From contig NZ_AHIL01000043.1 of NCBI RefSeq assembly GCF_000241525.1, positions 310,001 through 374,000 of the forward strand: DNA of 64,000 nucleotides, read 5' to 3'. Source of the stretch: Comamonas testosteroni ATCC 11996 (GTDB taxonomy: Bacteria > Pseudomonadota > Gammaproteobacteria > Burkholderiales > Burkholderiaceae_C). Positions 43,985 to 63,343 of this stretch are shown here, in pieces (the stretch's first letter is position 1; each line of letters opens with the position of its first letter). Under the pieces are notes generated by a model, which was given only the letters and a program-made list of their open reading frames with translations, had not been told where the DNA came from and did no database searches. Both the position numbers and the translations under genes were made by a program.

Positions 43985-44986
43985 TTACTTACCGGGGGTA
44001 TACAGCTTGTCGAACTGACCGCCATCGTTGAAATGCACCTTCTGCGCTTCGGTCAGCGAGCCGAAGTACTTGGCCACGGTGAACTGCTTGATGGGCTTGA
44101 ACTGGTCGGCGTGCTTCTTCAGCACCGCTTCGGAGCGAGGACGGATCGCATGCTTGGCAGCAATTTCCTGGGCTTCGTCAGAGTACAGCCACTGCAGATA
44201 GTCGGTGGCCAGCTGTGTCGTGCCCTTCTTGGCCACGGTGCGCTCAACCACGGCCACGGGGTTCTCGGCCACGATGCTCACCGAGGGGTAGACGGCGTCG
44301 ACCTTGCCCTGGCCGAATTCACGGTCCACGGACACGACTTCGGATTCGAAGGTGATCAGCACATCGCCGATATTGCGCTGCAAGAAGATGCTGGTCGCAT
44401 CGCGGCCGCCCTTGCCCAGCACGGGCACGTTCTTGTAGAGCTTTTGCACGAATTCGGCCGCTTGCGCATCGGTGCCGCCCTTTTCACGCACCGAGCCCCA
44501 GGCGGCCAAATAGGCGTAGCGACCATTGCCGCCGGTCTTGGGGTTGACCACCACGACCTTCACATCGGGGCGCACCAGATCGGACCAGTCCTTGATGTTC
44601 TTGGGATTGCCGTTGCGCACCAGGAACAGCATGGTCGATGTGGTGGGCGATGCATCATGCGGGAACTTCTTGTTCCAGTCCTTGGCGACCACGCCGTTCT
44701 GGGCCAGAAAATCCACATCGGTGGTCGTATTAAAGGTCACTACATCCGCAGCCAGACCGTCATTGACAGCGCGCGCCTGGGCACTGGAGCCGCCATGGGA
44801 CTGGTCCACCTTGATATCCACGCCCTTGGTCTTCTTGTAGTGGGCGATAAAGGCAGCGTTGTAATCCTTGTAGAACTCACGGGCCACGTCATAGGAGACA
44901 TTGAGCAGTTGAGTCTGAGCCGAGGCAGCGCCTGCTGCTGCCAGTGCGATGGATGCCAACAATGTCTTGAGCTTCACGGAATGCAT
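43985..44986 (-). CDS. sbp: Periplasmic sulfate-binding protein
   Basis: A 333-residue solute-binding protein for sulfate. Signal peptide 1-23 (ending AASA-QT); the mature part starts LLNVSYDVAREFYKDYNAAF, typical of Sbp, with the QSHGGSSAQARAV and GGNGRYAYLAAWG anion-binding segments. ATG at 44986 with AAGG upstream; a longer frame from 45055 overlaps the promoter and is rejected. It is the first gene of the sulfate operon; a symmetrical operator-like site lies 22 bases upstream. Confidence 0.94.
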   Translation of the reverse strand: MHSVKLKTLLASIALAAAGAASAQTQLLNVSYDVAREFYKDYNAAFIAHYKKTKGVDIKVDQSHGGSSAQARAVNDGLAADVVTFNTTTDVDFLAQNGVVAKDWNKKFPHDASPTTSTMLFLVRNGNPKNIKDWSDLVRPDVKVVVVNPKTGGNGRYAYLAAWGSVREKGGTDAQAAEFVQKLYKNVPVLGKGGRDATSIFLQRNIGDVLITFESEVVSVDREFGQGKVDAVYPSVSIVAENPVAVVERTVAKKGTTQLATDYLQWLYSDEAQEIAAKHAIRPRSEAVLKKHADQFKPIKQFTVAKYFGSLTEAQKVHFNDGGQFDKLYTPGK

Positions 44987-45007
44987 GGTTCGCTGCCTTT
45001 TCTTGAG

Positions 45008-45031
45008 CAATGTGTATAGATGTACACATTG
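45008..45031 (-). promoter_or_regulatory. 24-bp operator-like inverted repeat before sbp
   Basis: CAATGTGTA (45008-45016) and TACACATTG (45023-45031) form a perfect 9-bp inverted repeat with a 6-base spacer, 22 bases upstream of the sbp ATG. The region beyond (45050-45110) is AT-rich, as expected of a promoter. The half-site TGTGTA is unlike known CysB sites but resembles GntR-type TGT-N-ACA operators. It could also be a hairpin in the 5' UTR. Confidence 0.5.
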
Positions 45032-45124
45032 TGCGAACGAGTCCTTAAAACTCAAAAGAATATATTTTTCTTTGTTTTTCTGAAATTCAATATAAAGAAT
45101 AAAACAGCACGCAAAGCCAACGCA

Positions 45125-45172
45125 AAAGTAGCTGAAAACGCTTTATCAGCAAGCGCTTTAAGCTATCAAAAG
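45125..45172 (-). repeat. Dispersed AGCGCTT/GCTATCAAAA repeat
   Basis: On the minus strand it reads TTTTGATAGCTTAAAGCGCTTGC then TGATAAAGCGTTTTCAGCTACTTTTG. It aligns with 11392-11441 on the plus strand; shorter pieces lie at 62356-62370 and 63158-63178. The GCGCTT...AAGCG arms form a stem. Confidence 0.5.
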
Positions 45173-45203
45173 TAAAGCATAATCGGGAACCTGGTCAAGA
45201 ATT

Positions 45204-45791
45204 TCAAGCCGCAAGTGCAGCTGACTGCAAGGGCCGGCCTGAGGTCTGGGCATTCCAGCCGCCCTGCTCGGTCAGCGACTGCAGCAGTGCCAGCCCCAGC
45301 GGCCAGGCGCCGAAGCCCGATTCGATATTGATATGTCCGGCGTTCTGCAAGCGCACCAGCTCGCTGCCCCAGGCCCTGGCATAAGCGCCCGCACGGCGAA
45401 TAGGGCAGAACGGATCATTGCTGCTGGCCACCAGCACGCTGCGATAAGGCAGCGGCGCATAGGGCACGGGAGCGAAGTCGGCCAACTGGGCGCGGCGCTC
45501 GGGATCGGCAGGAGCCACCAGCAAGGCGCCATGAACGCGCGCTGCAGCAGCCTCACCCAGATGTGCGGTCGTGATGCAACCCAGGCTGTGAGCCACGATG
45601 ACGGCAGGACGCTCATCGGCGAGCAAGACTTTTTCCAGCTCCCCAACCCAGGCATCGCGGTGCGGCACCAGCCAGTCCTGCTGCTGTACACGCACTGCTC
45701 CCTCCAGCTGCTCGGCCCACAGGCTTTGCCAATGACCGGGGCCGGAGTTGCGCCAGCCCGGCACGATCACGATGCGAAATGGGGATGTCAT
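45204..45791 (-). CDS. RBBP9/YdeN-type alpha/beta hydrolase
   Basis: A 195-residue serine hydrolase of the RBBP9/YdeN family: IVIVPGWRNSGPGHWQSLW at the N-terminus, nucleophile elbow AHSLGC (Ser at about 69), acidic residue in SSNDPFCP (about 125) and catalytic His in NAGHINIESGFG (about 152). The substrate is unknown; the family has esterase-like activity. It is a single gene between sbp and the LysR regulator on the same strand. Confidence 0.87.
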   Translation of the reverse strand: MTSPFRIVIVPGWRNSGPGHWQSLWAEQLEGAVRVQQQDWLVPHRDAWVGELEKVLLADERPAVIVAHSLGCITTAHLGEAAAARVHGALLVAPADPERRAQLADFAPVPYAPLPYRSVLVASSNDPFCPIRRAGAYARAWGSELVRLQNAGHINIESGFGAWPLGLALLQSLTEQGGWNAQTSGRPLQSAALAA

Positions 45792-45932
45792 GCTGCCTCC
45801 TGTAATCTCGGAGCGACAGCCAAGCCAGGGGAAAAAGCCCGGCGCGCTCCTGATCTGATAACAAGGCAGTCATTGTGGGCAGGGCCTGCACAAATCCCAA
45901 CGAATGTTTTGTTGTTACCTTATGGGCAGAAG

Positions 45933-46874
45933 CTAATGCAGCGCCGAGGCAGATGCAGCCTTCTGCGCGGCAGAGATGCTGCTGCCCGGCATGCGCTCAC
46001 CGAGAAAGTCCAGAAAATGCCGGACTGCCGGCGCCAGCCCGCGCCGCGAAGGAAACACCGCATGCACAATGCCGCGTGGAGGCGCCCATTGCGGCAGCAA
46101 CTGCACCAGAGTGCCTCGGGTCAATTCGTCCTGACACATATAGTCAGGCAGCCAGCACATGCCGCTGCCGGCCAGGGCTGCAAACTTCAGCGTCAGCAAA
46201 TCGTCGACCACATAGCGCGGCTGCAACTGCAGCCGGTGCTCCTTGCCTTCGGGCCCGACAAGCAACAGGCTGGAATGGCCGTCAACTGCCGCCATCGCCA
46301 TGCTGTCGAGCAACTGCAAGTCCTCCAGCGACCTGGGAGTGCCCTGGCGCTGCAGCAGGTCGGGGCTGGCCACCAGGATCTGGCGTGAGCTGTCGAGTCG
46401 CTTGACGACCATGGAGCCGCTGTCCTCTAAAGTGGCACGCACGCGCAATGCGACATCCACCCCCTCCTCGACCAGATTGACAGGGCGGTTGGTGACCTGC
46501 ATCTCCACCTGCACCAGCGGGCAGCGCTTGAGGAATTCGGGCATCAGCTCACCCAGCACCGTCTGCGCGAGTGTCACCGGACAGGTCACACGAATGGTGC
46601 CGCGCGGCTCGGTCTGGACTTCGGCCACAGCATCCGACGCGGCCAGGGCGGCATCGCGCATGGCCTGGCCATGGCGCAGAAAGGTCTCCCCCACTTGCGT
46701 CAGAGACAGCTTTCGGGTGGTGCGTTGCAGCAAGCGCACCCCAAGATGGGCCTCCAACTCGGCAACACGACGCGAGAGGCGCGACTTGGGAATACCCAGT
46801 GCTCGCCCCGCAGCGGCAAAGCCGCCGCGCTCGACCACTTCGACGAAGTACAGCATGTCGTTGAGATCCACCAT
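45933..46874 (-). CDS. LysR-family transcriptional regulator
   Basis: A 313-residue LysR protein. HTH at 1-60 (MLYFVEVVERGGFAAAGRALGIPKSRLSRRVAELEAHLGVRLLQRTTRKLSLT) and effector domain about 90-300 (GTIRVTCPVTLAQTVLGELMPEF). It is divergent from the azoreductase gene across 194 bases, so it most likely controls azoR, as redox-type LysR regulators often do with quinone/azo reductases. The inducer is unknown. Confidence 0.9.
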   Translation of the reverse strand: MVDLNDMLYFVEVVERGGFAAAGRALGIPKSRLSRRVAELEAHLGVRLLQRTTRKLSLTQVGETFLRHGQAMRDAALAASDAVAEVQTEPRGTIRVTCPVTLAQTVLGELMPEFLKRCPLVQVEMQVTNRPVNLVEEGVDVALRVRATLEDSGSMVVKRLDSSRQILVASPDLLQRQGTPRSLEDLQLLDSMAMAAVDGHSSLLLVGPEGKEHRLQLQPRYVVDDLLTLKFAALAGSGMCWLPDYMCQDELTRGTLVQLLPQWAPPRGIVHAVFPSRRGLAPAVRHFLDFLGERMPGSSISAAQKAASASALH

Positions 46875-47068
46875 GCATAAATCCTTGGACTCGATTGAAT
46901 TGATATTTGGAACGATCTATCGCATTTTTGCAGACTTATTGCCGAATCTAAACAAATCTACAATCTATCCCATTGCAATTCAAAACGAATCACTGTTTTG
47001 CCGCAACGCAGCATCCGGGCTGGGCAAGAAGTGCTCTCTTACTCATTTTTAGAGGTATAGGTACCAAT

Positions 47069-47686
47069 ATGCAAATCCTGCACATCGACTCTTCCATCAC
47101 TGGCTCCAATTCCGTTACCCGCGCACTGACAGCCGATATCGTTGCCAGCCTCAAGCAGGCCAACCCCGAAGCCAAGGTGGACTACCTGGATCTGGCCGTG
47201 AGCGCCCCCAGCCACCTGAGCGCGCAGTCTCTGGGCTTTCGCACCGGCCAGGCCGCTGCCACCGAAGTCGAACGTCAGGAAAACGCTGTCTCCGAAGCGC
47301 TGGTCAGCCAGTTCCTCGCAGCTGATGTGATCGTCGTGGGCGCTCCCTTCTACAACTTCACCATTCCCTCGCAGCTGAAGGCCTGGCTGGACCGCATCGC
47401 CCAGGCTGGCCGTACCTTCAAGTACACCGCTACCGGCCCCGTGGGTCTGGCCGGCGACAAGAAGGTCATCGTCGCTTCCGCTCGCGGCGGCGCTTACTCC
47501 ACCAGCGAAGCGGGCCAGGCCATGGAACACCAGGAAAGCTATCTGAAGGTGATCTTCGGCTTCATGGGCGTGACCGACGTGACCATTGTTCGTGCTGAAG
47601 GCGTGGCCATGGGTCCCGACGCCAAGGCTGCGGCCATGGAAGCTGCCAAGGCTCAGATCGAGCAAGCACAAGCCGTCGCTGCCTGA
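47069..47686 (+). CDS. azoR: FMN-dependent NADH-azoreductase
   Basis: A 205-residue flavodoxin-like oxidoreductase: [25 protein letters not shown] at the N-terminus (FMN phosphate loop), [27 protein letters not shown] (about 92-118) and SARGGAYS (about 140). AzoR enzymes reduce quinones and azo dyes by two electrons with NADH and protect against thiol and quinone stress. The ATG at 47069 has AGAGG 13 bases upstream. It is followed by a strong terminator. Confidence 0.92.
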
Positions 47687-47701
47687 TAGCTGACTGAGGT
47701 G

Positions 47702-47740
47702 AAAAAGCCGGCATCGCGTAAGGCATGCCGGCTTTTTTTT
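47702..47740 (+). terminator. azoR intrinsic terminator
   Basis: AAAAAGCCGGCAT and ATGCCGGC with TTTTTTTT: the stem GCCGGCAT (47707-47714) pairs with ATGCCGGC (47725-47732) over a 10-base loop, followed by eight T. It lies 16 bases after the azoR stop. Confidence 0.9.
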
Positions 47741-47900
47741 GCACGACAAAACTGGTCCCTACCGGGGTTTCGACATTTCCGACTGAAGTTCTCGAAAAAA
47801 ATGCCGATCTGAAGGCCTGAGCCCGCTGTTTTTGATACGCTGAAAACAGTTAGATACTTATCAGGACCGAGTCCCGCTTGACCCGGTCACGCTTTCCCAG

Positions 47901-48317
47901 ATGCCAGCTTCCCGCCCCATGTCCACCGCCATCCATCAAGCGCCTCAGCGCTCCGACGAGAACCTCGTCGTTACCGCTATTGCCGCGTTTCTGGTGGCAG
48001 CACTGATTCTGGGTACGGTCGCCTATCAATATCTCAAGCATTCGCAGCAGCAGGAGCAGACCCGTACCGACCGTCAGGCCTACAAGCGCTACAACGACTA
48101 TCTGAACTCCACCGAGCAAGCCGCTCCCAAGCCTGCCACCAGGCCGTCGGCCCCCGCTCAGGTCAGCGCACCTGCCGCAGCGCCCAGCATGGCCGAGAAG
48201 CTGCTCAGCCACCCGGCCGTCACGCCTGGCCCGGGCTTCAACGCCCCCGGCGTACAACAGACCGGCGTGGCCATCATCGATGCGATGGATCACGCCCAGG
48301 CATCTGCCAAGCAGTAA
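47901..48317 (+). CDS. Small single-span membrane protein of unknown function
   Basis: 138 residues: a short basic/polar start, one membrane helix (about 23-44, VVTAIAAFLVAALILGTVAYQYL), a charged Gln/Arg/Tyr-rich segment and an Ala/Pro-rich linker ending in a conserved-looking tail (AEKLLSHPAVTPGPGFNAPGV). I do not recognise a family. An internal ATG at 47919 is an alternative start; neither has a clear ribosome site. It converges with the SDR gene. Confidence 0.6.
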   Translation: MPASRPMSTAIHQAPQRSDENLVVTAIAAFLVAALILGTVAYQYLKHSQQQEQTRTDRQAYKRYNDYLNSTEQAAPKPATRPSAPAQVSAPAAAPSMAEKLLSHPAVTPGPGFNAPGVQQTGVAIIDAMDHAQASAKQ

Positions 48318-48358
48318 GGTCAAGAAGGCAGACAGGCTTTGCCTTGCTGCCTGGCAGT

Positions 48359-49156
48359 TCAGCGCATCACCAGGCCGCCGTCGACAAGCAGCAGCTGCCC
48401 GGTCATGAAACCGCTGAGTTCCGACGCCAGGAACAGCACCGGCCCCGCCACATCTTCGGGCCGCGCCAGCCGACGCAGCGGCGTGGCCGCCATCAGCGAT
48501 TCACGAAAAGACTCCTTGCTGCCCTGTGTGCCCTGCGTGGGATAGACCAGACCGGGCGCCACGCAGTTGACGCGGATGCCCACTGGCCCCAGCTCGCTGG
48601 CCAGATTGCGGCTGAAAGCCAGCAAGGCGCCCTTGGATGTCGTGTAGTCGTGGTAGGCGACGACAGGCTGCTCCACCAGATTGCTGACGATGTTGACAAT
48701 GCTGCCGCGCGCGCGCTGGCGCATCAACGGCAGCACCGCACGGCAGACATTGAAGCTTGCACCTACGGCCCCGTCGAACTGTGCCTGATAGTCCGCCCAT
48801 TGCAGATCGTCAAACCGGCTGCGTCGTTCGGGGTCAAATGCATAGGGCCTGAAGGCATTGTTGACCACGATATCGATGCCCCCCGCTTCGCGCACGATGC
48901 CGTCCACCATGCTCTGCACTGCATCGGGCGAACCCACATCGGCCTTGACCGCCCAGGCATCCCCCCCCGAGTCCTTGCCCGCGGCCAGGCAGGCATCCAC
49001 AGTGCTGGCTGCAGCCTCGTCGTTGGACAGGTAGTTGATGGCCACCGTCGCGCCCTCGCGTGCAAACGCCAGGGCAATCGCAGCGCCAATGCCGCGGCTG
49101 CCCCCCGTCACCAGCACCACCTTGCCGCGCAAGCCCATTGAAGAAGACTGACTCAT
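48359..49156 (-). CDS. SDR-family oxidoreductase (FabG-like), end of the TPP-riboswitch operon
   Basis: A 265-residue short-chain dehydrogenase: NAD(P) loop TGGSRGIG (about 16-23), NNAF (about 95), the catalytic Ser near VNIVSNLVEQPV, YHDYTTSK (Tyr-x-x-x-Lys, about 170) and the C-terminal SGFMTGQLLLVDGG. Classical FabG has NNAG; here NNAF. It is on the same strand as, and 141 bases after, the luxE-luxC-ABC operon, with repeat copy C between. A reductase turning an aldehyde into an alcohol would complete a LuxE-LuxC acid reduction, which is an inference. ATG at 49156; an in-frame GTG lies at 49162. Confidence 0.88.
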   Translation of the reverse strand: MSQSSSMGLRGKVVLVTGGSRGIGAAIALAFAREGATVAINYLSNDEAAASTVDACLAAGKDSGGDAWAVKADVGSPDAVQSMVDGIVREAGGIDIVVNNAFRPYAFDPERRSRFDDLQWADYQAQFDGAVGASFNVCRAVLPLMRQRARGSIVNIVSNLVEQPVVAYHDYTTSKGALLAFSRNLASELGPVGIRVNCVAPGLVYPTQGTQGSKESFRESLMAATPLRRLARPEDVAGPVLFLASELSGFMTGQLLLVDGGLVMR

Positions 49157-49185
49157 ATTCACGATTTCCGCTCAAACACTAGCAG

Positions 49186-49295
49186 GCCCCAAGCAAGAGA
49201 CAGCAAGCAAGGTCCTGCCCAACGATGCTGTCGCCCCCCTCCCCCAGAGAGAAGAGGAAGGCGCTGGCCGCCCAGGTAACACGCCTCAGGGGGAG
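49186..49295 (-). repeat. Dispersed intergenic repeat, copy C (after the ABC binding protein)
   Basis: It starts 2 bases after the binding-protein stop. On the minus strand it runs CTCCCCCTGAGGCGTG ... GGCCAGCGCC ... CTTCTCTCTGGGGGAGGGGGG ... GACAGCATCG, and ends CTTGCTTGCTGTCTCTTGC. The last block is shared with copy D. Confidence 0.75.
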
Positions 49296-49297
49296 AT

Positions 49298-50296
49298 TTA
49301 CAGCGGCACAACCACATCCGCCACCTTGATCTGTCGCTGCACCATGCCCAGCGCACGATAGGCATCGGCGCCTTTTTGCAGCGCGGCCATATCGAAGCTG
49401 CCCAGCGGCTGACCCTGGACTGCCGGCATGGAAGAGGCGTTACGCAGGCGGATCACATCCAGATTGATATCGCGACGCGTACCGTCGATGGCATATTTGC
49501 TGGCCAGCACCGAGGCTTCCTCGGGATTCGCCATCATCCAGGCAGCGCTTTCGCGGTAGCCCTTGACGAATGCCTTGAGCAAGTCCTTCTTCTGCTGGAA
49601 CACTTCCTCGCGCACCACAAACATGTCGCTGGACATATTGAGGTGGTCGCTGACCTGCATCACATTGACCTCGCCTATGCCCTTGCGCAGCCCCACCGCC
49701 AGGCCTGTATCCGTGGCGGCAGTCGCATCAACCTGCCCTTGCATCAGGGGCGCAAAGTTCAGCAGGCCGGTCACGACAATGCTGACATCCGACTCCTTGA
49801 GGCCGGCCTGATGCAGCATCACCAGCAGGTTCTGGCGCGTTCCGCTGGCAAGGCTGTAGACACCGATCTTCTTGCCCTTGAGGTCTGCCGGCTTGCGAAT
49901 GCCCGAGGACTTGAGCGAGACCACGTTGAACACGTTCTGCGGATAGATGTCGTAGATCGCCACCAGCTTCTCGCCCTTGTCCAGAGCCATGAAGAAGGAG
50001 CCGGGGTCGGTAAACGCCACGTCGGCCTGGCCGCTGAGGATATTGCGGATCGCATCGCCGCCGCCCGCGCCGGGCAGATAGGCCAGTTCCACGCCATTCG
50101 CCTTGAAGAAGCCTTTTTCGGGCTCGACCAGAATATTGGTGATCTCGCTGATGGGCTTGCTCCAGCCGGCCAGGCGAATCTTGCCCTGCAGGGGAACCGC
50201 CATGCTGGTGCCGGTCATGGCAAGGCCGCTCAGGCCTGCACAGGCGCCGAGCAGGCTGCGGCGAGAGATGAACGAAGTCTGGTTGCTGTTGTGCAT
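49298..50296 (-). CDS. ABC transporter substrate-binding protein (NMT1/SsuA type, thiamine-precursor-like)
   Basis: A 332-residue exported binding protein. The N-terminus FISRRSLLGACAGLSGLAMTG has a twin-arginine-type signal. The mature part has the NMT1/SsuA fold (IRLAGWSKPISEITNILVEPEKGFFKANGVELAYLPGAGGGDAIRNILSGQADVAFTDPGSF), the type that in ThiY binds thiamine pyrimidines and in SsuA binds sulfonates. Being under a TPP riboswitch, a thiamine-related ligand is likeliest. ATG at 50296; the longer frame upstream overlaps the permease and is rejected. Confidence 0.85.
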   Translation of the reverse strand: MHNSNQTSFISRRSLLGACAGLSGLAMTGTSMAVPLQGKIRLAGWSKPISEITNILVEPEKGFFKANGVELAYLPGAGGGDAIRNILSGQADVAFTDPGSFFMALDKGEKLVAIYDIYPQNVFNVVSLKSSGIRKPADLKGKKIGVYSLASGTRQNLLVMLHQAGLKESDVSIVVTGLLNFAPLMQGQVDATAATDTGLAVGLRKGIGEVNVMQVSDHLNMSSDMFVVREEVFQQKKDLLKAFVKGYRESAAWMMANPEEASVLASKYAIDGTRRDINLDVIRLRNASSMPAVQGQPLGSFDMAALQKGADAYRALGMVQRQIKVADVVVPL

Positions 50297-50318
50297 GACA
50301 AATGGTTTGAAGATGCAG

Positions 50319-51107
50319 TCAGGCCCGGTTGCCCGACTGCGAGGTTGAAAAGTGATGGGAGCGCAGCAAATAGCGCTCCAGAACAAGACAGGCCTGATAC
50401 AGCAGCAGCCCCATGGCGGCAATCAGCACCAGCGCCGCAAACATCAGCGTGGTGTCCATCATTCCCTGGGCTGCAATGACCACTGCCCCCAGGCCCTGGC
50501 TGGCGCCCATGAACTCGGCCACCACGGCGCCGACCAGCGCCAGCACCACGGCCACGCGCAGCCCGGCCAGAATCGCGGGCAGCCCCGTCGGCAGTTTCAG
50601 GCGCAGCAAGGTCTGCAGACGTGTAGCGCCCAGCATGCGAAACAGCTGCAGGCGCTGAGCATCCACCTGCCGCAGGCCCGTCAATGTGTTTTCCATCAAC
50701 GGAAAAAAGCAGATCAGCGCCGTGATCAGCACCGTTGGCAACATGCCGAAGCCGAACCACAGCACAAACAATGGCGCCAGGGCCAGCTTGGGCACGACCT
50801 GGCTGACCACCACATAGGGCTTGAGCACGCGCTCCAGCAGTTCAGACTCGGCCAGTGCCATGCCGGCCAGCAGGCCCACGGCGCTGCCTATGAGTAGGCC
50901 CAGCAGCAAGGCCTGCAAGGTCGCCCAGAGATGCGGCCAGAAATAGCCGGATGCCAGACCCGAGCACAGCGACAGCGCCACTGCCGAGGGCGCAGGCAAC
51001 ACCAGCGCCGACAAGCCAAATTGCCTCGCAGCCAGCTCCCATATTGAAAGAACGGCTATCAAAAGCAAGGCAGACAGCCAATGTGTCTTGCTCAGCAAGC
51101 TGCTCAT
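50319..51107 (-). CDS. ABC transporter permease (SsuC/ThiX type)
   Basis: A 262-residue inner-membrane permease with six helices and the EAA loop (QRLQLFRMLGATRLQTLLRLKLPTGLPAILAGLRVAV, about 140-176). It belongs to the nitrate/sulfonate/taurine/thiamine-precursor permease group. Its ATG overlaps the ATPase stop (ATGA) and the binding-protein gene follows after 22 bases, so these form one operon. Confidence 0.9.
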   Translation of the reverse strand: MSSLLSKTHWLSALLLIAVLSIWELAARQFGLSALVLPAPSAVALSLCSGLASGYFWPHLWATLQALLLGLLIGSAVGLLAGMALAESELLERVLKPYVVVSQVVPKLALAPLFVLWFGFGMLPTVLITALICFFPLMENTLTGLRQVDAQRLQLFRMLGATRLQTLLRLKLPTGLPAILAGLRVAVVLALVGAVVAEFMGASQGLGAVVIAAQGMMDTTLMFAALVLIAAMGLLLYQACLVLERYLLRSHHFSTSQSGNRA

Positions 51108-51841
51108 GCGCCCCCCCGGTCCATCGAGGTGCGCACCCGGGCGCAGTAGTCGTTGAACGCCGCACCATGGCGCATGCTTTGCTGACGCGGCTGCGGCAGC
51201 TCTATCGACCAGTCGTCCACGATGCGGCCCCCATGCATGAGTGCAATGCGGTCGCCCAGATAGACGGCCTCGTTGATGTCGTGGGTAACAAACAGCACCG
51301 TCGTTCCATGCCTATGGCAGGTGCGCAGCAAGTCGTCCTGCAGCTCGGAGCGTGTGATGGCATCCAGCGCCGCAAAAGGCTCGTCGAGCAGCAGCAGCGG
51401 CGGCTCCAGGATCAGGGCTCGCGCCAGAGCCACGCGACTTTGTTGTCCGCCCGAGAGCTGGCCCGGGTAAAGCCGTGAATGGGTGGCAAGACCCAGTTGC
51501 TCCAGCAACTGCATGGCCGCCTGTTGATCTTGCTGTGTGGGTTTGCGCTGCAGCGACACGGGCAGCAGCACGTTATCGATCACCGTATGCCAGTCCAGCA
51601 GTGTCGGTGCCTGGAACATGAAGCCCAGCTGCGGCCCCGGCGCTGCCAGTTCGCTGCCGCGCAGCAAGACATGCCCCGACTGAGGCCTGAGCAGGCCTGC
51701 CGCCAGCTTGAGCAGCGTGGTCTTGCCGCAGCCGCTGCGCCCCAGCAGGCAGTGAAACTCTCCGGCCCCGACCTGCCAGTCCACGCCATCCACCACGGGC
51801 ACTCGTCCCGGGTAGCTGAATCGGGCCTGTTTGAACTCCAT
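51104..51841 (-). CDS. ABC transporter ATP-binding protein (SsuB/ThiZ type)
   Basis: A 245-residue ABC ATPase: Walker A GRSGCGKTT (about 33), Q-loop FMFQAPTLLDW (the LLxW typical of SsuB/TauB), signature LSGGQQSRVALARAL, Walker B LLLLDEPFAALD and VTHDINEA. The start MEFKQARFSYPG (51841) gives the family N-terminus; an ATG at 51877 would overlap luxC by 11 bases and add 12 residues. It belongs to the riboswitch operon. Confidence 0.9.
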   Translation of the reverse strand: MEFKQARFSYPGRVPVVDGVDWQVGAGEFHCLLGRSGCGKTTLLKLAAGLLRPQSGHVLLRGSELAAPGPQLGFMFQAPTLLDWHTVIDNVLLPVSLQRKPTQQDQQAAMQLLEQLGLATHSRLYPGQLSGGQQSRVALARALILEPPLLLLDEPFAALDAITRSELQDDLLRTCHRHGTTVLFVTHDINEAVYLGDRIALMHGGRIVDDWSIELPQPRQQSMRHGAAFNDYCARVRTSMDRGGA

Positions 51842-51866
51842 GAATGCCACGGCTGTATCCACTCCC

Positions 51867-53333
51867 TCAGTCCGCATAAGAGGCCAGCGGCTGGGCCGCC
51901 AGTTCTGCCGACTGCTCGATCTCCGTCATGCGCACCAGATCCAGCAGGTTGAAGCGCCCGTCATGGTGCCAACCCGCCTCGGGCATGCTCATGGAGCCGA
52001 TGGCGCTGATACGCGTGACGCCAGCCGCACCCAGCAGCCCGGCCAGGCGGTACAGCTCTTCGGGGCCGGCCGCAATGCCGGCGGTCTGCAGATAGTCGCG
52101 CTGAGCGGCCACCACGGGCAGCACGGCATCGAGCCGGTCCACGGCCACCACGGCAATCGTGCGGTACAGCGCGGTCGGTGCCAGAGGCTGAAGACTCTCG
52201 CTGTAGGCAACGCTCCAGGGTGCATCCACAGGCCCCAGCAGCTGATGAGCTTCGCCGCCCCACTCCATGTTCTGCTGCCAGCGGGCCAGCGCCGCCCCTT
52301 CTTCAAGATCCAGCTCGCGGCGTGCAAAACGTCGCTGCAGATTGGCAAGCTCGGCCGCCAGATAGTCGGCAAAAGCACGCGGCGAAACCGGCGCCCCACG
52401 CTGCACATAGAACACATGGGGCGAATAGCAGCCCTGCTGGTCGTAGCGCATCACGTCCCAGGCTGCCTGCCTTGCCATGGCCGGAGCCTTGAGCGTATCC
52501 AGCGCCTGGGCCCCGATCAGGCCAAAGCCCAGCTTGTGGCCATGGGGCAAAAAGCGCGTCGTCACGGGCAGACGACGGCGCAGTGCATCCAGCGTCTGAT
52601 TGCCGCCATAGGCCAGCACCGTATCGGCCTGGGCATAGAGCGCGTCGGCCTCCTCCCCGCCTGCACCGCGCCACCACACCACGGCCAGGCAATCGGCCAG
52701 CGGCGGGTGAACCTCGGCCAGCAGGCGTGCAAACCATCCCGCAAACAAGGGCTCGGCACTGGCCAGCTTGCCAATCGCAGGGGCCTTGACCAGCAAGCCA
52801 CAGACCAGACTCCACAGCGACAGCGCAGGCACGTTGCCCGCCCAGCTATGCACCAGCAGATCCGGGCCGAAAGCACGTACGGCGCCGCCCTTGGCTGCCG
52901 GTTGAAAGCCATCGAGCACCGCCGGGTTGGCAAAATCCTCGGCCACAAAGCGCTTGAGCTGCGCTGCACGAAAGGTCTTGAAAAATCCTGTCAGCCCCAG
53001 CCGCACCATATCGGCGTCATAGCCGCTGACCACGGGCAGCCAGGCTTCGGCCTGCTGGCGGTAGATGTCGTTACGGTCCAGCAGGCGAGCCATCGCACGA
53101 TCGACGGCATCGATGATCTCGGCCACCGGCATGGGACGCAGATGGATGGCCGCAGCTGTACGCACACGACAGGCCAGTGCCTGCATCTGCGGCGCCGTCA
53201 GCACGGGAACGCAGACTTCCAGCACCTGGCCGTTCCGAGACTTGAAGTCCAGCGTCTGCCACTGCACTTCATCGTCGTTCAGGCCTGGCAGATAGCCAGC
53301 CCTGATGCGCTGTAGCTTGCGCTGCTCGTTCAT
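51867..53333 (-). CDS. luxC: LuxC-like acyl-CoA/acyl-thioester reductase
   Basis: A 488-residue protein of the LuxC family (aldehyde-dehydrogenase fold), which reduces an activated acyl group to an aldehyde with NADPH. Visible motifs are the GGNQTLDALRRRLP nucleotide region (about 240), HGHKLGFGLIG, and the catalytic cysteine loop DQQGCYSPHVFYV (Cys at about 302). In luminous bacteria LuxC works with LuxE and LuxD to make the luciferase aldehyde. Here there is no luxA, luxB or luxD nearby. It overlaps luxE by ATGA. The gene symbol denotes homology only. The true substrate is unknown; the TPP riboswitch suggests a thiamine-related carboxylate (inference). Confidence 0.86.
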   Translation of the reverse strand: MNEQRKLQRIRAGYLPGLNDDEVQWQTLDFKSRNGQVLEVCVPVLTAPQMQALACRVRTAAAIHLRPMPVAEIIDAVDRAMARLLDRNDIYRQQAEAWLPVVSGYDADMVRLGLTGFFKTFRAAQLKRFVAEDFANPAVLDGFQPAAKGGAVRAFGPDLLVHSWAGNVPALSLWSLVCGLLVKAPAIGKLASAEPLFAGWFARLLAEVHPPLADCLAVVWWRGAGGEEADALYAQADTVLAYGGNQTLDALRRRLPVTTRFLPHGHKLGFGLIGAQALDTLKAPAMARQAAWDVMRYDQQGCYSPHVFYVQRGAPVSPRAFADYLAAELANLQRRFARRELDLEEGAALARWQQNMEWGGEAHQLLGPVDAPWSVAYSESLQPLAPTALYRTIAVVAVDRLDAVLPVVAAQRDYLQTAGIAAGPEELYRLAGLLGAAGVTRISAIGSMSMPEAGWHHDGRFNLLDLVRMTEIEQSAELAAQPLASYAD

Positions 53334-54424
53334 GCGCCGGCAGCTTTCACAAACTCTTCAACCGCCAGCGAGCAGCCCTTGGCTGCGGCCCCTTCGGCCC
53401 GTCCAAGCAGCAAAAAGCCGTCTTTTTCCTGCGGGCCGGCCCACAGGCCCACATCCTCGGTCAGGATGGTGGTCACCGCGTTGTAGTTGGCCAGATCGCA
53501 ATGCACCAGAATGCCGCGCTCACCAGCGGCCACGTCCCTGCCGGTGATCGGCTCGACCAGACGCGAGCGAATCCAGTGCGGGCCGGACTTGACCGAAGGC
53601 AGCACCGCATTGCCATCGTCATAGAACTGGGTGCTCAGCTCCGTCATGCCATACATATTGATGCACAGACTGCGCGGCACGCCCAGCAACTGGGAAAGCT
53701 CGGCATAGAACTGCTCAAGCGGCAGCTCGCGCGACTGCCCCTTGTAGCCGCCCGTATCCAGCACGCGGCTGCCTGCGGGCAGGCGGAAGCTGCGGCCCTG
53801 CGCACGCAGGGCATCCATCACATGGACCAGGCTGAAGCTCGCGCCCAGCAGGGCAAAGGGCTGGCCGCTGCGCTCTGACTCCTCCAGCGCGGCGCACAGG
53901 GCCGGCATGTCCAGCCCTTCCGAGTTCAGGTAGTAGCGGCTGCCGGCCGAGCCGAATTCGGAGCGGGCAAGTGCCAAATAGTGGGCCAGCGAGGAATTGG
54001 GCATGGCCTGCTCATCGGGAAACAGAATGCCCATGGGCATGCGCTCCAGCCCCTGCATGAAACGCCTGGAGAAATAGCGCTTCATGGACAGGTCGTAGAC
54101 ATCGAGCTGCGGATGGAAATGACGTCCACGTGCGGCGCGGCCCGTGGTGCCACTGGTCATGAATACGCGCTCGGCGGGCGATGGCGGCTCGCTGCGCAGC
54201 TCCATCGCCTTGAAGGCATCGATGGGCACAGCAGGGACATCGCGCCAGCTCCTGACATTGCGCAGCGTGGCGCCGCGTCGCTGGCAAAAGCTGCGAAACG
54301 GCGCATTGCATTCGTACTGGTAGGCGAAAAGGCGCAGGGCGAATTGATTGAACTGGTCGTCGGTGCAGTCATCCATTGCGATGAAAGCAAGCAGATCGGC
54401 GACCAGCGAAGCGGCCTTGTCCAT
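53330..54424 (-). CDS. luxE: LuxE-like acyl-protein synthetase (first gene of TPP-riboswitch operon)
   Basis: A 364-residue adenylating enzyme of the LuxE/PaaK family: an ATP-binding motif FMTSGTTGRAARGRHFH (about 88-104), YGMTELSTQFYDD (about 260) and the C-terminal KGCSLAVEEF with Cys351, matching the cysteine in LuxE that carries the acyl group. It activates a carboxylic acid as acyl-AMP, loads it onto its own cysteine and passes it to LuxC. The start ATG has GAAGGA 5-6 bases upstream. That ribosome site lies within a predicted hairpin, and a TPP riboswitch lies 84 bases upstream, so translation should fall when thiamine is plentiful. Confidence 0.87.
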   Translation of the reverse strand: MDKAASLVADLLAFIAMDDCTDDQFNQFALRLFAYQYECNAPFRSFCQRRGATLRNVRSWRDVPAVPIDAFKAMELRSEPPSPAERVFMTSGTTGRAARGRHFHPQLDVYDLSMKRYFSRRFMQGLERMPMGILFPDEQAMPNSSLAHYLALARSEFGSAGSRYYLNSEGLDMPALCAALEESERSGQPFALLGASFSLVHVMDALRAQGRSFRLPAGSRVLDTGGYKGQSRELPLEQFYAELSQLLGVPRSLCINMYGMTELSTQFYDDGNAVLPSVKSGPHWIRSRLVEPITGRDVAAGERGILVHCDLANYNAVTTILTEDVGLWAGPQEKDGFLLLGRAEGAAAKGCSLAVEEFVKAAGA

Positions 54425-54430
54425 GAAATT

Positions 54431-54462
54431 CCTTCGAGAGCGGGGACGTCATGCTCCGAAGG
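54431..54462 (-). promoter_or_regulatory. Ribosome-site-sequestering hairpin of luxE
   Basis: On the minus strand CCTTCGGAG (54462-54454) pairs with CTCTCGAAGG (54440-54431), with one bulged base and a 13-base loop. The downstream arm includes the AAGG of the luxE ribosome site. It lies between the TPP aptamer and the start codon, which fits a translational expression platform; the switching partner strand was not identified. Confidence 0.55.
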
Positions 54463-54507
54463 CTTGCTGACCATGCGAGAACGCACTGCCCTGAGGTCAG
54501 CTTGCAA

Positions 54508-54580
54508 GCTCTTCTTCCGCCGGTATGAACCGGGTCAAGTTCGCGGGTGTAGATCTCAGCACTGGTGTGCACCCCGGAGC
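54508..54580 (-). promoter_or_regulatory. TPP riboswitch (THI box)
   Basis: On the minus strand this reads GCTCCGGGGTGC, then GTGCTGAGATCTACACCC, GCGAACTTGACCCGGTTCAT and ACCGGCGGAAGAAGAGC. GGGGTGC, CTGAGA, ACCC-GAAC-TGA and the CCGG...ACCGGCG segment are the conserved core of the thiamine-pyrophosphate riboswitch, and the P1 ends GCTC (54580-54577) and GAGC (54511-54508) pair. A possible -10 box TAAGAT (54594-54589) would start the RNA right at the aptamer. It controls the luxE-luxC-ABC operon, not a classical thi gene. Confidence 0.93.
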
Positions 54581-54585
54581 GCGGC

Positions 54586-54896
54586 GCCATCTTACCCCAA
54601 CGGCATCGCTGCAAGGGGCCGGAGCTGGCGCATGAAAGTCGCGTCACTTGTAACCTGGGGTAAGGCTCCAGCACGCGCAAGAAGGACATCCAGGGCAAAA
54701 ACATCAAAACACTGCTGCCCAAATACAATCGACCCAGCACCGCAAGCTGCCTGAGACGCAACCTGCCGCTGCGCCGACAATGGCGCAGGTACGACATGCC
54801 TGAAAGCGCGGCATGGCGCGGCGATGGACGGCGTCAGCAGAGCTTGCAAGCCATCCAGGGCACTGAACGCCCGCCCCAAGCCCCAGAGATATTCAC
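54586..54896. other. Divergent promoter region of TPP operon and TonB receptor
   Basis: 311 bases without a gene. The minus-strand TAAGAT box near 54589-54594 is a candidate -10 for the riboswitch operon (the -35 is poor). For the plus-strand receptor no clear promoter or riboswitch core was seen; its leader ends AGAGATATTCAC before the ATG. No Fur box was recognised here, unlike for the receptor at 22-25 kb. Confidence 0.45.
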
Positions 54897-57053
54897 ATGC
54901 ATTTTTCGCGCCTTTGTCATCTGGCAGGCTGGCCTGTGGCCGCCGCCGGACTGCTGCTGACGGCACAGTCCGCAACAGCCCAGCAAGCCGCCGCCCAACC
55001 GGACCTGCCCCAGTTGTCCGAAGTCACCGTGCGCAGCACCTTGCAGGAGTCCGCGCTTGAGCAGACCCCGGCCTCCGTCACCGTGCTCGACGGCGAACGC
55101 ATGCGCGAGCGCAATCTGCAGGTCAATCTCTCGGAGTCCCTGAGCGCAGCTCCGGGACTGCAGCTGCAGAACCGCCAGAACTATGCGCAAGACCTGCAGC
55201 TGTCGATTCGCGGCTTTGGCGCGCGCTCCACCTTCGGTGTGCGCGGCATACAGATCTATGTGGACGGCATCCCCTCCACCATGCCCGACGGCCAGGGTCA
55301 GACCAACAATATCGATATCGCCTCGCTGGAGCGCGTGGAAGTGCTGCGCGGCCCCTACTCTGCGCTCTATGGCAACGCCTCTGGCGGCGTGATCAATGCC
55401 TATACCGAACGCGGCGAGGGCGCGCCCTCGGTGGAAAGCAGCTTTGCACTGGGCAGCGACGGGCAGAAGCGTCTGGGCCTCAAGGCCAAGGGCGAAGCCA
55501 ACGGGATTGGCTATGTGCTCAGCGCCAGCCGTTTTCTCACCGACGGCTACCGAGCCCAGAGCGCAGCGGACAAAAACCTGTTCAACGCCCGTATCGATGT
55601 CAAGCCCGACGAATACAGCCAGCTGACCCTGGTGGCCAACCACGTGGGCATCGATGCAAAGGACCCCGGCGGCATAGAGCCAGCGAACTGGGCCAAGAAT
55701 CCGCAGATGACCACGCCAAATGCGCTGACATACAACTCGCGCAAAAGCGTGAAACAGACCCAGGCCGGCCTGACCTACGAGCGCGAGCTTGGCGCAGGCC
55801 AGGCGCTGCGCCTCATGGCCTATGCCGGTCAGCGCGAAATGATGCAGTTCCAGTCCATCCCGTCGGCATCTCAAACTGTCACAAAACCAGAAAATGAAGG
55901 AAACCGGTACAGAGGCGGGGTGATCGGCCTCAGGCGCGACTATGGCGGCATCGATGCGCGCTGGAGCGGCAAGTACGAGCTGGGCAGCGGCAGCCTGAGC
56001 CTGATTGCCGGCCTGTCCGCCAATACCGTCAGGGAAGACCGCCAGGGCTACAAGAACTTTGTGGGCAACCAGCTGGGCGTGGTCGGCGAGCTGGTGCGCG
56101 ACGAGCGCAACACCCTCACCAGCGTTGACCCCTATCTGCAAGCTTCCTGGGCCTTTGCGCCGCGCTGGAAGCTCGATGCCGGCCTGCGCTGGAGCAATGT
56201 GCAGTTCCAGTCGCGCGACCATTTCCTGGCCGACAAGGACGATAGCGGCAATGCCGGATTCCACAAGCTGCTGCCGGTTGTTTCACTGCAGCACGAGCTC
56301 AATCAGGACACCAATGTCTATGCCTCACTGGGTCGCGGCATGGAAACACCTACCTTCAACGAGATCTCGTACCGCCCCGATCTGATGGGAGGCCTGAACA
56401 TCGGCCTCAAGCCCGCAGTATCGACCAGTGCCGAGCTGGGCATCAAGCAACGCTTCAATGTGGCCGGACTGCGCGGCGACTGGTCTGCCGCGCTGTTCCA
56501 GACCCAGACCGACAATGAAATCGTGGTGGCCAGCAACGACAACGGCCGCACCTCCTATCAGAACGCAGGCAAAACACGCCGCCGCGGCATGGAGCTGAGC
56601 GGCAGCACCTGGCTGATGCCCCAATTGCGCCTGAACGGCGCGCTGACCATGCTCGACGCCAGCCTGCGCAGCGGCTATTGCGACAGCACAGGCAAGGACT
56701 GCATTCCCGCCGGCAACCGCATTGCTGGCACGGCCAGACATCTGGGCTACCTGGGGCTGGAATGGCTTCCCGCCACCGACTGGCGTGTGGGCCTGGACTG
56801 GCGTCATGTGGGCCGCATTGCCGCCGACGACAAAAACCAGGTCTATGCCCCCAGCTACGACGTGGCCAGCCTGAGCGTGGGCTACACCCGGCGCCTGGGT
56901 GCCTGGAAGCTCAGTGCTTTTGCCCGCATCGACAATCTGGCGGACAAGAACTATGTGGGCTCGGTCATCGTCAACGAAGGCAACGGACGTTATTACGAGC
57001 CGGCCCCGGGACGTCAATGGATGACTGGTGCCAGCCTCAGCTATCAGTTCTAG
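54897..57053 (+). CDS. TonB-dependent outer-membrane receptor
   Basis: A 718-residue receptor: signal peptide (about 1-28), TonB-box-like LSEVTVRST (about 38-47), plug (about 50-165; TPASVTVLDGERM, RGFGARSTFGVRGIQIYVDGIPSTMPDGQGQ, LRGPYSALYGNASGG) and a barrel ending ASLSYQF. It lacks an STN domain. The plug resembles the YncD/IutA-like receptors, with unknown ligand. It is divergent from the thiamine-riboswitch operon and 622 bases before the biotin transporter operon, so uptake of a vitamin or vitamin precursor is conceivable, but iron-chelate transport is equally possible. A terminator follows. Confidence 0.88.
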   Translation: MHFSRLCHLAGWPVAAAGLLLTAQSATAQQAAAQPDLPQLSEVTVRSTLQESALEQTPASVTVLDGERMRERNLQVNLSESLSAAPGLQLQNRQNYAQDLQLSIRGFGARSTFGVRGIQIYVDGIPSTMPDGQGQTNNIDIASLERVEVLRGPYSALYGNASGGVINAYTERGEGAPSVESSFALGSDGQKRLGLKAKGEANGIGYVLSASRFLTDGYRAQSAADKNLFNARIDVKPDEYSQLTLVANHVGIDAKDPGGIEPANWAKNPQMTTPNALTYNSRKSVKQTQAGLTYERELGAGQALRLMAYAGQREMMQFQSIPSASQTVTKPENEGNRYRGGVIGLRRDYGGIDARWSGKYELGSGSLSLIAGLSANTVREDRQGYKNFVGNQLGVVGELVRDERNTLTSVDPYLQASWAFAPRWKLDAGLRWSNVQFQSRDHFLADKDDSGNAGFHKLLPVVSLQHELNQDTNVYASLGRGMETPTFNEISYRPDLMGGLNIGLKPAVSTSAELGIKQRFNVAGLRGDWSAALFQTQTDNEIVVASNDNGRTSYQNAGKTRRRGMELSGSTWLMPQLRLNGALTMLDASLRSGYCDSTGKDCIPAGNRIAGTARHLGYLGLEWLPATDWRVGLDWRHVGRIAADDKNQVYAPSYDVASLSVGYTRRLGAWKLSAFARIDNLADKNYVGSVIVNEGNGRYYEPAPGRQWMTGASLSYQF

Positions 57054-57080
57054 TTAGGTCATCCGCGTTGCCGGACAGCC

Positions 57081-57107
57081 AAAAAGCGGGCCCAGAGCCC
57101 GCTTTTT
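57081..57107 (+). terminator. TonB receptor intrinsic terminator
   Basis: AAAAAGCGGGC (57081-57091) pairs with GCCCGCTTTTT (57097-57107) over a 5-base loop, then more T. It lies 28 bases after the receptor stop. Confidence 0.9.
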
Positions 57108-57674
57108 TTATATCCGGACGGCTCAAAAGCGATTTCTTCAGAAAAATTTTGGTGCTTGCAAACTGCCTGTCTGAGCCCGAAAACTGCCAATCTCGCGCCG
57201 GCTTGACTGCCTAAAGGCAGACGCCTGCAACAGGCTTGCGCTCATCAGCCATGCAAGCCGCGTCAAAACATGGCTATCCACGGCCAATCTCATGAATCTT
57301 CACGCCAGCGCTCATGCAGATTGAGCGAAGTTAGCCTCTGAAGTCGGCAAGAACAGCACACAGAAATTCTTCACTCTGCAACACGCTGCTATCAGGCGTG
57401 CAACAGCCACGAAATGCGGGACAAACGACAACGACCGCCAGCCCAAAGTAAAGAAATCATTTCTTATAGGAAATTCACATAAAAAGAGCTCAGATGGCAG
57501 TCTTTTGAAAGCAAATTCACAGCGCTAGAATCCGCCACCAACGCTGCCTCGTATGTTTGAAGCCGGGGCACGGTTTCAGATTCGTCCCCGTATGTCAGCC
57601 CTTTTCGTTTCTTGCCATCCACATTCCAGCCCGGCGCCTTGCAGCCCTGCCCTTGCCGCAGCAGGAGCTGGCGC
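57108..57674. other. Leader and promoter region of the bioMNY operon
   Basis: 567 bases without a gene. It contains a 15-bp perfect inverted repeat AAGAAATCATTTCTT (57451-57465) and a candidate promoter 40 bases later. The transcript would have a leader of about 135 bases. I saw no BirA-type or BioR-type (TTAT-N-ATAA) operator. Confidence 0.45.
57505..57531 (+). promoter_or_regulatory. Candidate bioMNY promoter
   Basis: TTGAAA (57505-57510) and TAGAAT (57526-57531) are separated by 15 bases, slightly short of the ideal 17. The 15-bp inverted repeat AAGAAATCATTTCTT ends 39 bases upstream of the -35 and could bind a regulator. Confidence 0.4.
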
Positions 57675-58424
57675 ATGAGCGGCGGTTTGCAGATCCCGGC
57701 CCCGCAAGGCGTGCAGTTGGTCGACATACGGCTGCAGCGTGGCCAGACCCAGGTGTTTGACGGCCTGAACCTGGCCCTGACGCAAAAGCGCATCGGCGTG
57801 ATCGGCAACAACGGCGCGGGCAAATCGAGCCTGTTCCGCCTGCTTTGCGGACTTGAGCTGCCCCAGGCCGGACAGGTACTGGTGGATGGCATGCCCTTGC
57901 TGCAAGCGCGCCAGCACAAGCCCGGCCTGATCGGCCTGATGTTCCAGAACCCGGACGACCAGATCATCTTCCCCACTGTGGAGGAAGAACTGGCCCTGGG
58001 CCTGCGCCCCCAGGGCCTGAACAAGCAGCAGGCCAGAGCCAGGGCACGCGAGCTGCTGGCCGCGCGCGGTCTGGCCCACTGGGCCGAGCGGGCCGTTGGC
58101 AGCCTTAGCCAGGGCCAGCGCCAGCAGGTGTGCTGGCTCTCGCTGCTGATTGCCGCGCCCCAGTTGCTGCTGCTGGACGAGCCCTTCGCCAGCCTGGACC
58201 TGCCCGGTCAGGCCCGCCTGGCCCAGGATATCGCTGCCGCGCCGCAACAGGTGCTGGTCTCCACCCATGTGCTCGACCATGTGCGCGACTTTGAGCGCGT
58301 GATCTGGCTGGAGCAAGGCCGGCTGCGCGGCGACGGAGCGGGCCGCGACATCTGCAGCGCCTACGAGGCCTCAGTGCGGGAGCAGTTGCTGAAGAAAAAC
58401 GCGCACGGAGACCTGCATGGGTAG
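57675..58424 (+). CDS. bioM: Biotin ECF transporter ATPase BioM (EcfA-like)
   Basis: A 249-residue ABC ATPase of the energy-coupling-factor class: Walker A GNNGAGKSS (about 37), Q-loop FQNPDDQI (the NPDDQ of EcfA/CbiO proteins), signature LSQGQRQQV, Walker B LLLLDEPFASLD and STHVLDHV. It energises BioY through BioN. The ATG at 57675 is preceded by AGGAG at 8 bases; upstream in-frame starts are rejected. Its end overlaps bioN by 8 bases. Confidence 0.92.
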   Translation: MSGGLQIPAPQGVQLVDIRLQRGQTQVFDGLNLALTQKRIGVIGNNGAGKSSLFRLLCGLELPQAGQVLVDGMPLLQARQHKPGLIGLMFQNPDDQIIFPTVEEELALGLRPQGLNKQQARARARELLAARGLAHWAERAVGSLSQGQRQQVCWLSLLIAAPQLLLLDEPFASLDLPGQARLAQDIAAAPQQVLVSTHVLDHVRDFERVIWLEQGRLRGDGAGRDICSAYEASVREQLLKKNAHGDLHG

Positions 58425-59010: not shown

Positions 59011-59017
59011 GAGAGCA

Positions 59018-61122: not shown

Positions 61123-61127
61123 GGCCC

Positions 61128-62351: not shown

Positions 62352-62376
62352 ATTCATTTTTGATAGCTACTACCCC

Positions 62377-63090: not shown

Positions 63091-63190
63091 ATGAGCAGCT
63101 AGCGCAATCCCACAATAGATTTCAAGCAACTTTCTATCTAAGATTCAATATAAACAAGCGCCATAAGCTATCAAATAAAGAGCAATAAAA

Positions 63191-63212
63191 AAGCGCTGCA
63201 AGTGCAGCGCTT
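63191..63212 (-). terminator. Intrinsic terminator after metQ
   Basis: AAGCGCTGCA (63191-63200) pairs with TGCAGCGCTT (63203-63212) over a 2-base loop (effectively 6). On the minus strand it is followed by TTTTTATTG, so it should end the metQ transcript about 130 bases after the stop, beyond repeat copy D. Confidence 0.75.
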
Positions 63213-63237
63213 AGTTAAATGCCTCAGAAACAGGCAT

Positions 63238-63340: not shown

Positions 63341-63343
63341 TCA

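Follow-up and report, generated by a model that had tools for sequence, protein, structure and literature searches.

A thiamine pyrophosphate riboswitch heads a luxE-luxC operon that probably salvages the pyrimidine of thiamine

Introduction

Why would a thiamine pyrophosphate (TPP) riboswitch stand before a luxE-luxC pair, a pair best known from luminous bacteria? This arrangement is found in a stretch of 64,000 nucleotides of Comamonas testosteroni ATCC 11996 (contig NZ_AHIL01000043.1, positions 310,001 to 374,000 of the forward strand), hereafter called the window, where luxE and luxC are followed by the genes of an ATP-binding cassette (ABC) importer and of a short-chain dehydrogenase/reductase (SDR). 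An original prediction, made from the sequence alone, proposed that this operon salvages an oxidised part of thiamine by reduction under TPP control. The conservation of the riboswitch with the operon, and the thiamine genes joined to it in some genomes, support that core idea. Judging from sequence and gene context, the operon probably carries out reductive salvage of the thiamine pyrimidine, from a carboxylate form to hydroxymethylpyrimidine (HMP), and serves as a bypass of ThiC where ThiC is absent. HMP or its phosphate (HMP-P) is otherwise supplied de novo by ThiC and, in yeast, by THI5, while the TenA/YlmB route converts pyrimidines of base-degraded thiamine, namely formylaminopyrimidine (FAMP) and aminomethylpyrimidine (AmMP), to HMP.

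Results

A TPP aptamer precedes luxE

A cmscan search of a 501-base stretch matched RF00059 over its full length (model positions 1-105; Table 1), and the same aptamer had an E-value of 7.5e-9 when the whole 5.41 Mb genome was considered. The riboswitch that the original prediction had read from the letters is thus a full-length match, although its score lies 2.9 bits under the Rfam gathering score of 54.3; because of this shortfall, a default Rfam scan of positions 44000-64000 returned no match. The luxE-leader aptamers of 9 of 21 relatives (L006-L026; L and G numbers are our handles for loci and genomes) likewise fell under the cut-off, at 48.6-54.2 bits, and routine annotation may therefore miss this regulon. 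Orthologous aptamers reached 76.5 bits in another class of the phylum and 85 bits in Niallia. Three further TPP matches in the C. testosteroni genome stand before thiC, before a cytX-like gene and before a stretch encoding ThiO, ThiG and ThiE.

The proposed order of riboswitch, luxE, luxC, ATPase, permease, binding protein and SDR, all on the minus strand, was recovered with a Pfam family for each gene. The luxE and luxC genes overlap by 4 bases, luxC and the ATPase gene by 11, and the ATPase and permease genes by 4. No luciferase family was matched among the ten neighbourhood proteins scanned, and a family scan found no TenA (PF03070) among the operon proteins of the window.

Riboswitch and operon are conserved together in Burkholderiales

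We searched 250 genomes of the window's family with LuxE and obtained a match at E 1e-10 or better in 25. These comprised 22 clear orthologues (at least 60% identity, the window included), one protein with 46% identity at a contig end and two genomes with only a distant LuxE; one of the 22 orthologue genomes holds an additional distant LuxE. An aptamer lies upstream in all 22 clear orthologues, directly before luxE in 21 and before a thiD gene preceding luxE in one. A second set consisted of the best 80 of 365 relatives from GTDB, to which all GTDB counts below refer; the two sets overlap by several genomes and are not independent. Its loci come from Comamonas, Delftia, Acidovorax, Bordetella, Achromobacter, Thauera, Variovorax, Ramlibacter, Polaromonas, Curvibacter and other genera, and all 80 have the riboswitch upstream according to a covariance model (R1) built from the family set and the thiC aptamer, a model with a poor RNAalifold structure (15 pairs) that was used for presence only. 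All six genes stand in the same order in 19 of the 21 loci of the family set and in 73 of the 80 from GTDB; the remaining loci end with their contigs, and the SDR gene occupies the same place in every uncut six-gene operon of both sets. The association in relatives on which the original prediction had staked its case is therefore present.

The core is luxE-luxC-SDR, and the transporter is exchangeable

Beyond the family, matches at E 1e-20 or better were obtained in 6 of 398 genomes of a phylum sample, four of which belong to the window's family. In a class sample 2 of 369 genomes matched, both from the window's genus, and in the class of G433 5 of 289 did. Considering how few these matches are, the operon is rare outside the window's family. 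The holders outside the family (G433, G636, G1072, G1095, G1174 and G1189) all carry RF00059 above the gathering score before luxE (6/6).

Among plasmids, 31 records matched at E 1e-10 or better. We examined eight of these loci and found the aptamer in seven, six of them over the cut-off and that of Priestia megaterium at 49.0 bits; in the eighth locus, a distant Streptomyces copy, no aptamer was found. The gene content of the plasmid loci varied. The six-gene operon occurs in P. megaterium and Azospirillum lipoferum, and luxE-luxC-SDR stands alone on a Pantoea dispersa plasmid. In Lactiplantibacillus plantarum and Levilactobacillus brevis, whose proteins are identical, the order is aptamer, NCS2 permease, luxE, luxC, SDR, and a Niallia taxi megaplasmid (L161:6778-8998) has two tandem TPP aptamers, thiW and an NCS2 nucleobase permease gene, then luxE-luxC-SDR. 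The luxE-luxC-SDR genes of a Pseudomonas silvicola plasmid (L162:9001-12252) are split over several frames, owing to decay or to sequencing errors.

The transporter is thus exchangeable, being an NMT1-type ABC importer or a nucleobase permease, or is absent from the vicinity (L145, L152 and L157), and the importer is not, as had been supposed, a part of the system throughout. Given this variation in transport, only luxE-luxC-SDR, preceded by a TPP riboswitch, forms the constant core. No aptamer was found at any of four distant luxE loci (L053-L055 and L163), and in a LuxE tree these four rows fall on one side of a branch with 100/100 support, on very long branches. Phage records yielded no luxE match, and a distant blastn search of Escherichia coli genomes with the riboswitch-luxE-luxC DNA was equally negative.

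LuxE and LuxC belong to the acid-reducing families and lie far from the luminescence proteins

The scores of the window proteins for PF04443 (LuxE) and PF05893 (LuxC) greatly exceed the cut-offs of 24.9 and 21 bits, respectively (Table 1). By contrast, LuxE scored 73 bits against the luminescence equivalog NF052244, which demands 550, and LuxC 75.6 bits against NF052251, which demands 750. The two cysteines singled out by the original prediction, Cys351 of LuxE within KGCS and Cys302 of LuxC within QQGCYSP, lie in stretches that are invariant among 22 sequences each, and in an alignment with the solved LuxC-LuxE complex 7xc6 they fall on the GCS of its LuxE and the QQAC of its LuxC. The window LuxE is 99% identical to that of C. 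testosteroni JL40. Foldseek placed the predicted LuxE structure nearest to the phenylacetate-CoA ligase PaaK, and it also resembles the phenazine antibiotic biosynthesis protein 3hgu/3l2k.

The context of the operon points to the pyrimidine branch of thiamine synthesis

The genes joined to the operon bear on which half of thiamine it serves. In ten loci, L044 and nine of the GTDB set (L111, L113, L114, L118, L126, L129, L132, L133 and L137), thiD is the first gene, directly before luxE, and the riboswitch stands before thiD. In two loci scanned, the thiD model TIGR00097 scored 318 and 316 bits (cut-off 205). After the SDR gene, thiE follows in L044, L126, L133 and L137, and thiO-thiG-thiE in L118, from a genome that has ThiC; L129 and L132 are truncated. 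ThiE of L118 and L133 is over the PF02581 cut-off, while ThiO and ThiE are under those of NCBIfam. The genes thiO-thiG-thiE also come next on the same strand in L049-L051, there with an opposite-strand thiD in between. In G216 (100% complete, 3 contigs), which lacks ThiC and has TenA, the genes luxE-luxC-ABC-SDR-thiO-thiS-thiG-thiE are contiguous on one strand, the presumed thiS being judged from its position and the GG end of its product.

We then compared thiamine genes between 41 holder genomes (22 from the family sample and 19 from GTDB loci chosen by hand, namely every one of the nine that have thiD and ten others) and 80 non-holders. ThiC is missing in 15 of the 41 holders and in 36 of the 80 non-holders (p 0.44). 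Absence of ThiC alone was accordingly dropped as a marker of the operon and, since it is not enriched in holders, we asked which ThiC-less genomes keep ThiG, that is, thiazole synthesis. ThiG is present in 14 of the 15 ThiC-less holders, whereas a full ThiG is found in 3 of the 36 ThiC-less non-holders (p 7e-9, kinship ignored). With the family-sample holders only, which include six ThiC-less genomes of five genera, the figures are 6/6 and 3/36 (p 1.6e-5), and counting a contig-end stub in G041 as ThiG gives p 3e-8 for the 41-holder set and p 4e-5 for the family-sample holders. Among genomes with a completeness of 90% or more and a contamination of 5% or less, ThiG is kept in 4 of 4 as against 2 of 29 (p 3.7e-4). 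A module that occurs where ThiC is gone and thiazole synthesis is kept would most simply supply pyrimidine. TenA is present in 14 of the 41 holders; in 11 of the 15 that lack ThiC, including Ramlibacter montanisoli (G257) and Variovorax dokdonensis (G259), it had no match.

The importer resembles ThiXYZ

PF09084, the NMT1/THI5-like family, was matched by the binding protein (Table 1) and by 20 of 20 members of its alignment. The structure most similar to the predicted binding protein (predicted local distance difference test score, pLDDT, 81.3) in a Foldseek search was 3ix1, the FAMP-binding protein ThiY of Bacillus halodurans (template modelling scores 0.71/0.78), followed by 4nmy, a Clostridium difficile protein with bound thiamin. 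When the structures are aligned, the binding protein and ThiY share 18% identity. In profile searches by sequence, the best solved relatives were 3qsl (a putative exported protein), 4nmy and THI5 proteins, and the next matches were short ones to glutamate-binding tripartite ATP-independent periplasmic (TRAP) proteins and 3ix1, with weaker ones to TauA and SsuA. The best NCBIfam model for the ATPase was SsuB, below that model's cut-off. An NMT1/THI5-type binding protein nearest ThiY, a permease, an ATPase and TPP control together make this a putative importer of the ThiXYZ type. Taken with thiD, thiE and the retention of ThiG, this ThiY-like binder points to the pyrimidine branch.

Table 1. Features of the luxE-luxC operon in the window (positions of the window; aa, amino acids)
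Feature	Position	Strand	Evidence or remark
TPP riboswitch aptamer (RF00059), 5' leader of luxE	54495..54586	-	51.4 bits, E 2.9e-9
Leader between aptamer and luxE	54425..54494	-	weakly supported candidate for a translational switch
LuxE-like acid-activating ligase/acyl-protein synthetase, 364 aa, with Cys351 as presumed acyl carrier	53330..54424	-	PF04443, 74 bits
LuxC-like acyl-thioester reductase, 488 aa, presumed active Cys302	51867..53333	-	PF05893, 272.4 bits
ABC importer ATPase, SsuB/ThiZ type, 257 aa	51104..51877	-	PF00005
ABC importer permease, SsuC/ThiX type, 262 aa	50319..51107	-	PF00528 (BPD permease)
Periplasmic binding protein, NMT1/THI5-like, 332 aa	49298..50296	-	PF09084, 174.3 bits
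SDR oxidoreductase, 265 aa, proposed aldehyde-to-alcohol step	48359..49156	-	PF13561; YxxxK present

Discussion

From these data we infer the following sequence of reactions, including their direction, cofactors and substrate. When TPP is low, the riboswitch would permit expression of the operon, and the NMT1/ThiY-type importer would take up an acid, most likely 4-amino-2-methylpyrimidine-5-carboxylate. LuxE would activate the acid with ATP, first as an acyl-adenylate and then as a thioester on Cys351, from which the acyl group would be handed to Cys302 of LuxC and reduced to the aldehyde; the SDR would convert the aldehyde to the alcohol, HMP. Two successive reductions of the C5 acid of the pyrimidine would thus give the CH2OH group of HMP, which ThiD and ThiE could use together with thiazole from ThiG. 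Where ThiC is missing, the operon would act as a bypass; where ThiC is present, as in the window's host, de novo synthesis would be spared. In rat urine the acid occurs as a metabolite of thiamine, according to the title of Neal and Pearson (1964), as cited in PMC7780320. Passages of PMC10881298 name HMP, AmMP and FAMP as salvageable pyrimidine vitamers, and not the acid.

Several observations weigh against reductive salvage of the pyrimidine. ThiC loss, as described above, is not commoner in holders; 26 of the 41 keep ThiC, the window's host included, and this host also has a CytX-like putative HMP transporter. Nineteen of the 41 holders were picked by hand and are of unstated completeness, and the statistics ignore kinship. 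The ThiG of G255, one of the 14, is divided over two contig ends, and none was found in the ThiC-less holder G256, a metagenome-assembled genome. Another class contributes four ThiC-less holders, and two of these, from a single genus (G1072 and G1174), lack ThiG as well, although adding the four to the comparison still gives 16/19 versus 3/36 (p 2.5e-8). Four of the 15 holders without ThiC have TenA, the importer-less core has no adjacent uptake route, the LuxE model is of only fair quality (pLDDT 74.8), and SsuA ranked third in the fold search with the binding protein, with a close E-value.

Some of the alternatives keep the operon within thiamine metabolism. It could belong to the pyrimidine branch but use a different oxidised pyrimidine, or an acid of intracellular origin, as its substrate, in which case LuxE, LuxC and the SDR would take part in a ThiC-independent synthesis of HMP rather than in salvage. 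The importer-less core of G1189 (98% complete, without ThiC and with ThiG), of G636 and of the Pantoea plasmid would fit such a role, yet no conserved same-strand partner gene follows the SDR in the importer-less loci, and most loci examined have a dedicated importer; transporters elsewhere in the importer-less genomes, which were not searched for, are possible. We consider this alternative unlikely. Restoration of the thiazole side, with thiazole-5-acetic acid reduced to hydroxyethylthiazole (HET) or thiamine acetic acid to thiamine, would use the same acid-to-alcohol chemistry and could account for G1072 and G1174, which lack both ThiC and ThiG. It seems quite improbable, because the ThiG kept by 14 of 15 ThiC-less holders would be needless if thiazole or whole thiamine were salvaged, because thiD and thiE are joined to operons and because the binding protein most closely resembles one that binds a pyrimidine; for these reasons thiazole salvage was rejected as first choice. 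Of the substrates that the original prediction had offered, the pyrimidine acid is thus favoured, while the thiazole acid and thiamine acetic acid are disfavoured by the retained ThiG and the joined thiD and thiE.

Alternatively, LuxE, LuxC and the SDR could yield an aldehyde or alcohol, fatty or otherwise, that has no connection with thiamine, the riboswitch being a metabolic link only. Both families are best known for long-chain acyl reduction, and plasmid copies are annotated as long-chain fatty acid--CoA ligase. Considering the distance of the window proteins from the luminescence equivalogs, the riboswitch in all clear orthologues examined, the thiamine genes in some operons and the THI5/ThiY-like importer, we regard this explanation as very improbable; the readings as a luciferase operon and as a maker of fatty aldehydes were both rejected. 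The sub-threshold score of the window aptamer might, finally, raise the suspicion of a false riboswitch lying by ordinary genes, through chance or an annotation artefact; with aptamers in all clear orthologues examined and a score as high as that in Niallia, the chance of this is negligible.

Reductive salvage of the pyrimidine would share features with several known systems. ThiXYZ, whose ThiY binds FAMP, has an NMT1/THI5-like binding protein, a permease, an ATPase and TPP control as well, thiXYZ being under THI-element control according to a passage of PMC2211319. The operon described here differs from it by the added LuxE, LuxC and SDR and by a binding protein that has little identity to ThiY and whose ligand is only predicted. 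Like the proposed pathway, the TenA/YlmB route yields HMP from a damaged thiamine pyrimidine, but it hydrolyses an amine, whereas the operon is proposed to reduce an acid. ThiC and THI5 also supply HMP or HMP-P, by unrelated chemistry. The LuxC-LuxE fatty acid reductase of luminous bacteria is a homologous pair; the pair studied here differs in its TPP control, in the absence of a luciferase among the neighbourhood proteins scanned and in its proposed substrate, a small heteroaromatic acid. EhpF, which we take to be the 3hgu/3l2k neighbour of the LuxE model, carries out carboxylate reduction together with EhpG in the synthesis of D-alanylgriseoluteic acid; these two proteins serve antibiotic synthesis, and we know of no link between them and thiamine. 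According to part of PMC3175449, EhpF-O, except EhpJ, convert phenazine-1,6-dicarboxylate to a hydroxymethyl-bearing product.

We could not find the combination of these known enzyme families, or their role, described, while thiamine salvage itself is known. Among the open-access papers listed by the searches, subscription papers lying outside them, no title or beginning of an abstract contained a description of the operon, and the word LuxE does not occur in the passages concerned of the riboswitch papers PMC2211319 and PMC6478431. More generally, we lean towards the view that a mobile, TPP-riboswitch-controlled LuxE-LuxC-SDR cassette, which reduces the pyrimidine-5-carboxylate of degraded thiamine, is a further general route to HMP besides ThiC, THI5 and TenA, that it occurs across Alpha-, Beta- and Gammaproteobacteria, with plasmid-borne copies in Bacilli, and that it can replace ThiC. 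If so, an environmental pool of oxidised thiamine pyrimidine would be recycled by microbes, the auxotrophy calls made for ThiC-less genomes would change, and LuxE-LuxC pairs now annotated as fatty-acid enzymes would gain a non-luminescent role. In aquatic systems, most bacterioplankton are unable to make thiamine de novo, as stated in a passage of PMC10881298.

Further features of the leader and the neighbourhood

Between the aptamer and luxE, the leader contains CCUUCGGAGC, which could form a hairpin with GCUC..CGAAGG across the ribosome-binding site GAAGGA. This predicted hairpin is kept in near relatives; its energy z-score is -0.37, and there were zero compensatory changes in 22 distinct rows. 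We suggest, tentatively, that by hiding the ribosome-binding site the hairpin may serve as a translational expression platform. A weak second TPP match (31.1 bits) lies in tandem upstream of the main aptamer at L020:2783-2885 (-), and in G147 (L010:3704-3813 (+), and L035) the operon adjoins a cytX-like gene with a TPP match of its own (40.6 bits).

Divergent from the operon in the window is a gene for a PqqU-like TonB receptor (54897-57053, plus strand; 831.7 bits, cut-off 1200), adjoined by an ECF-type (energy-coupling factor) transporter (57612-59614) and an AMP-binding ligase (59611-61122). Among the GTDB and family loci, these surroundings were seen, whole or in part, only at Comamonas-type loci (L031 and L058-L061). 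In L154, a second TPP riboswitch (17541-17650, minus strand, 60.2 bits) heads an apparent branched-chain-type ABC importer (binding protein at 16421-17548), its type judged from sequence, which may be a further importer of thiamine precursors.

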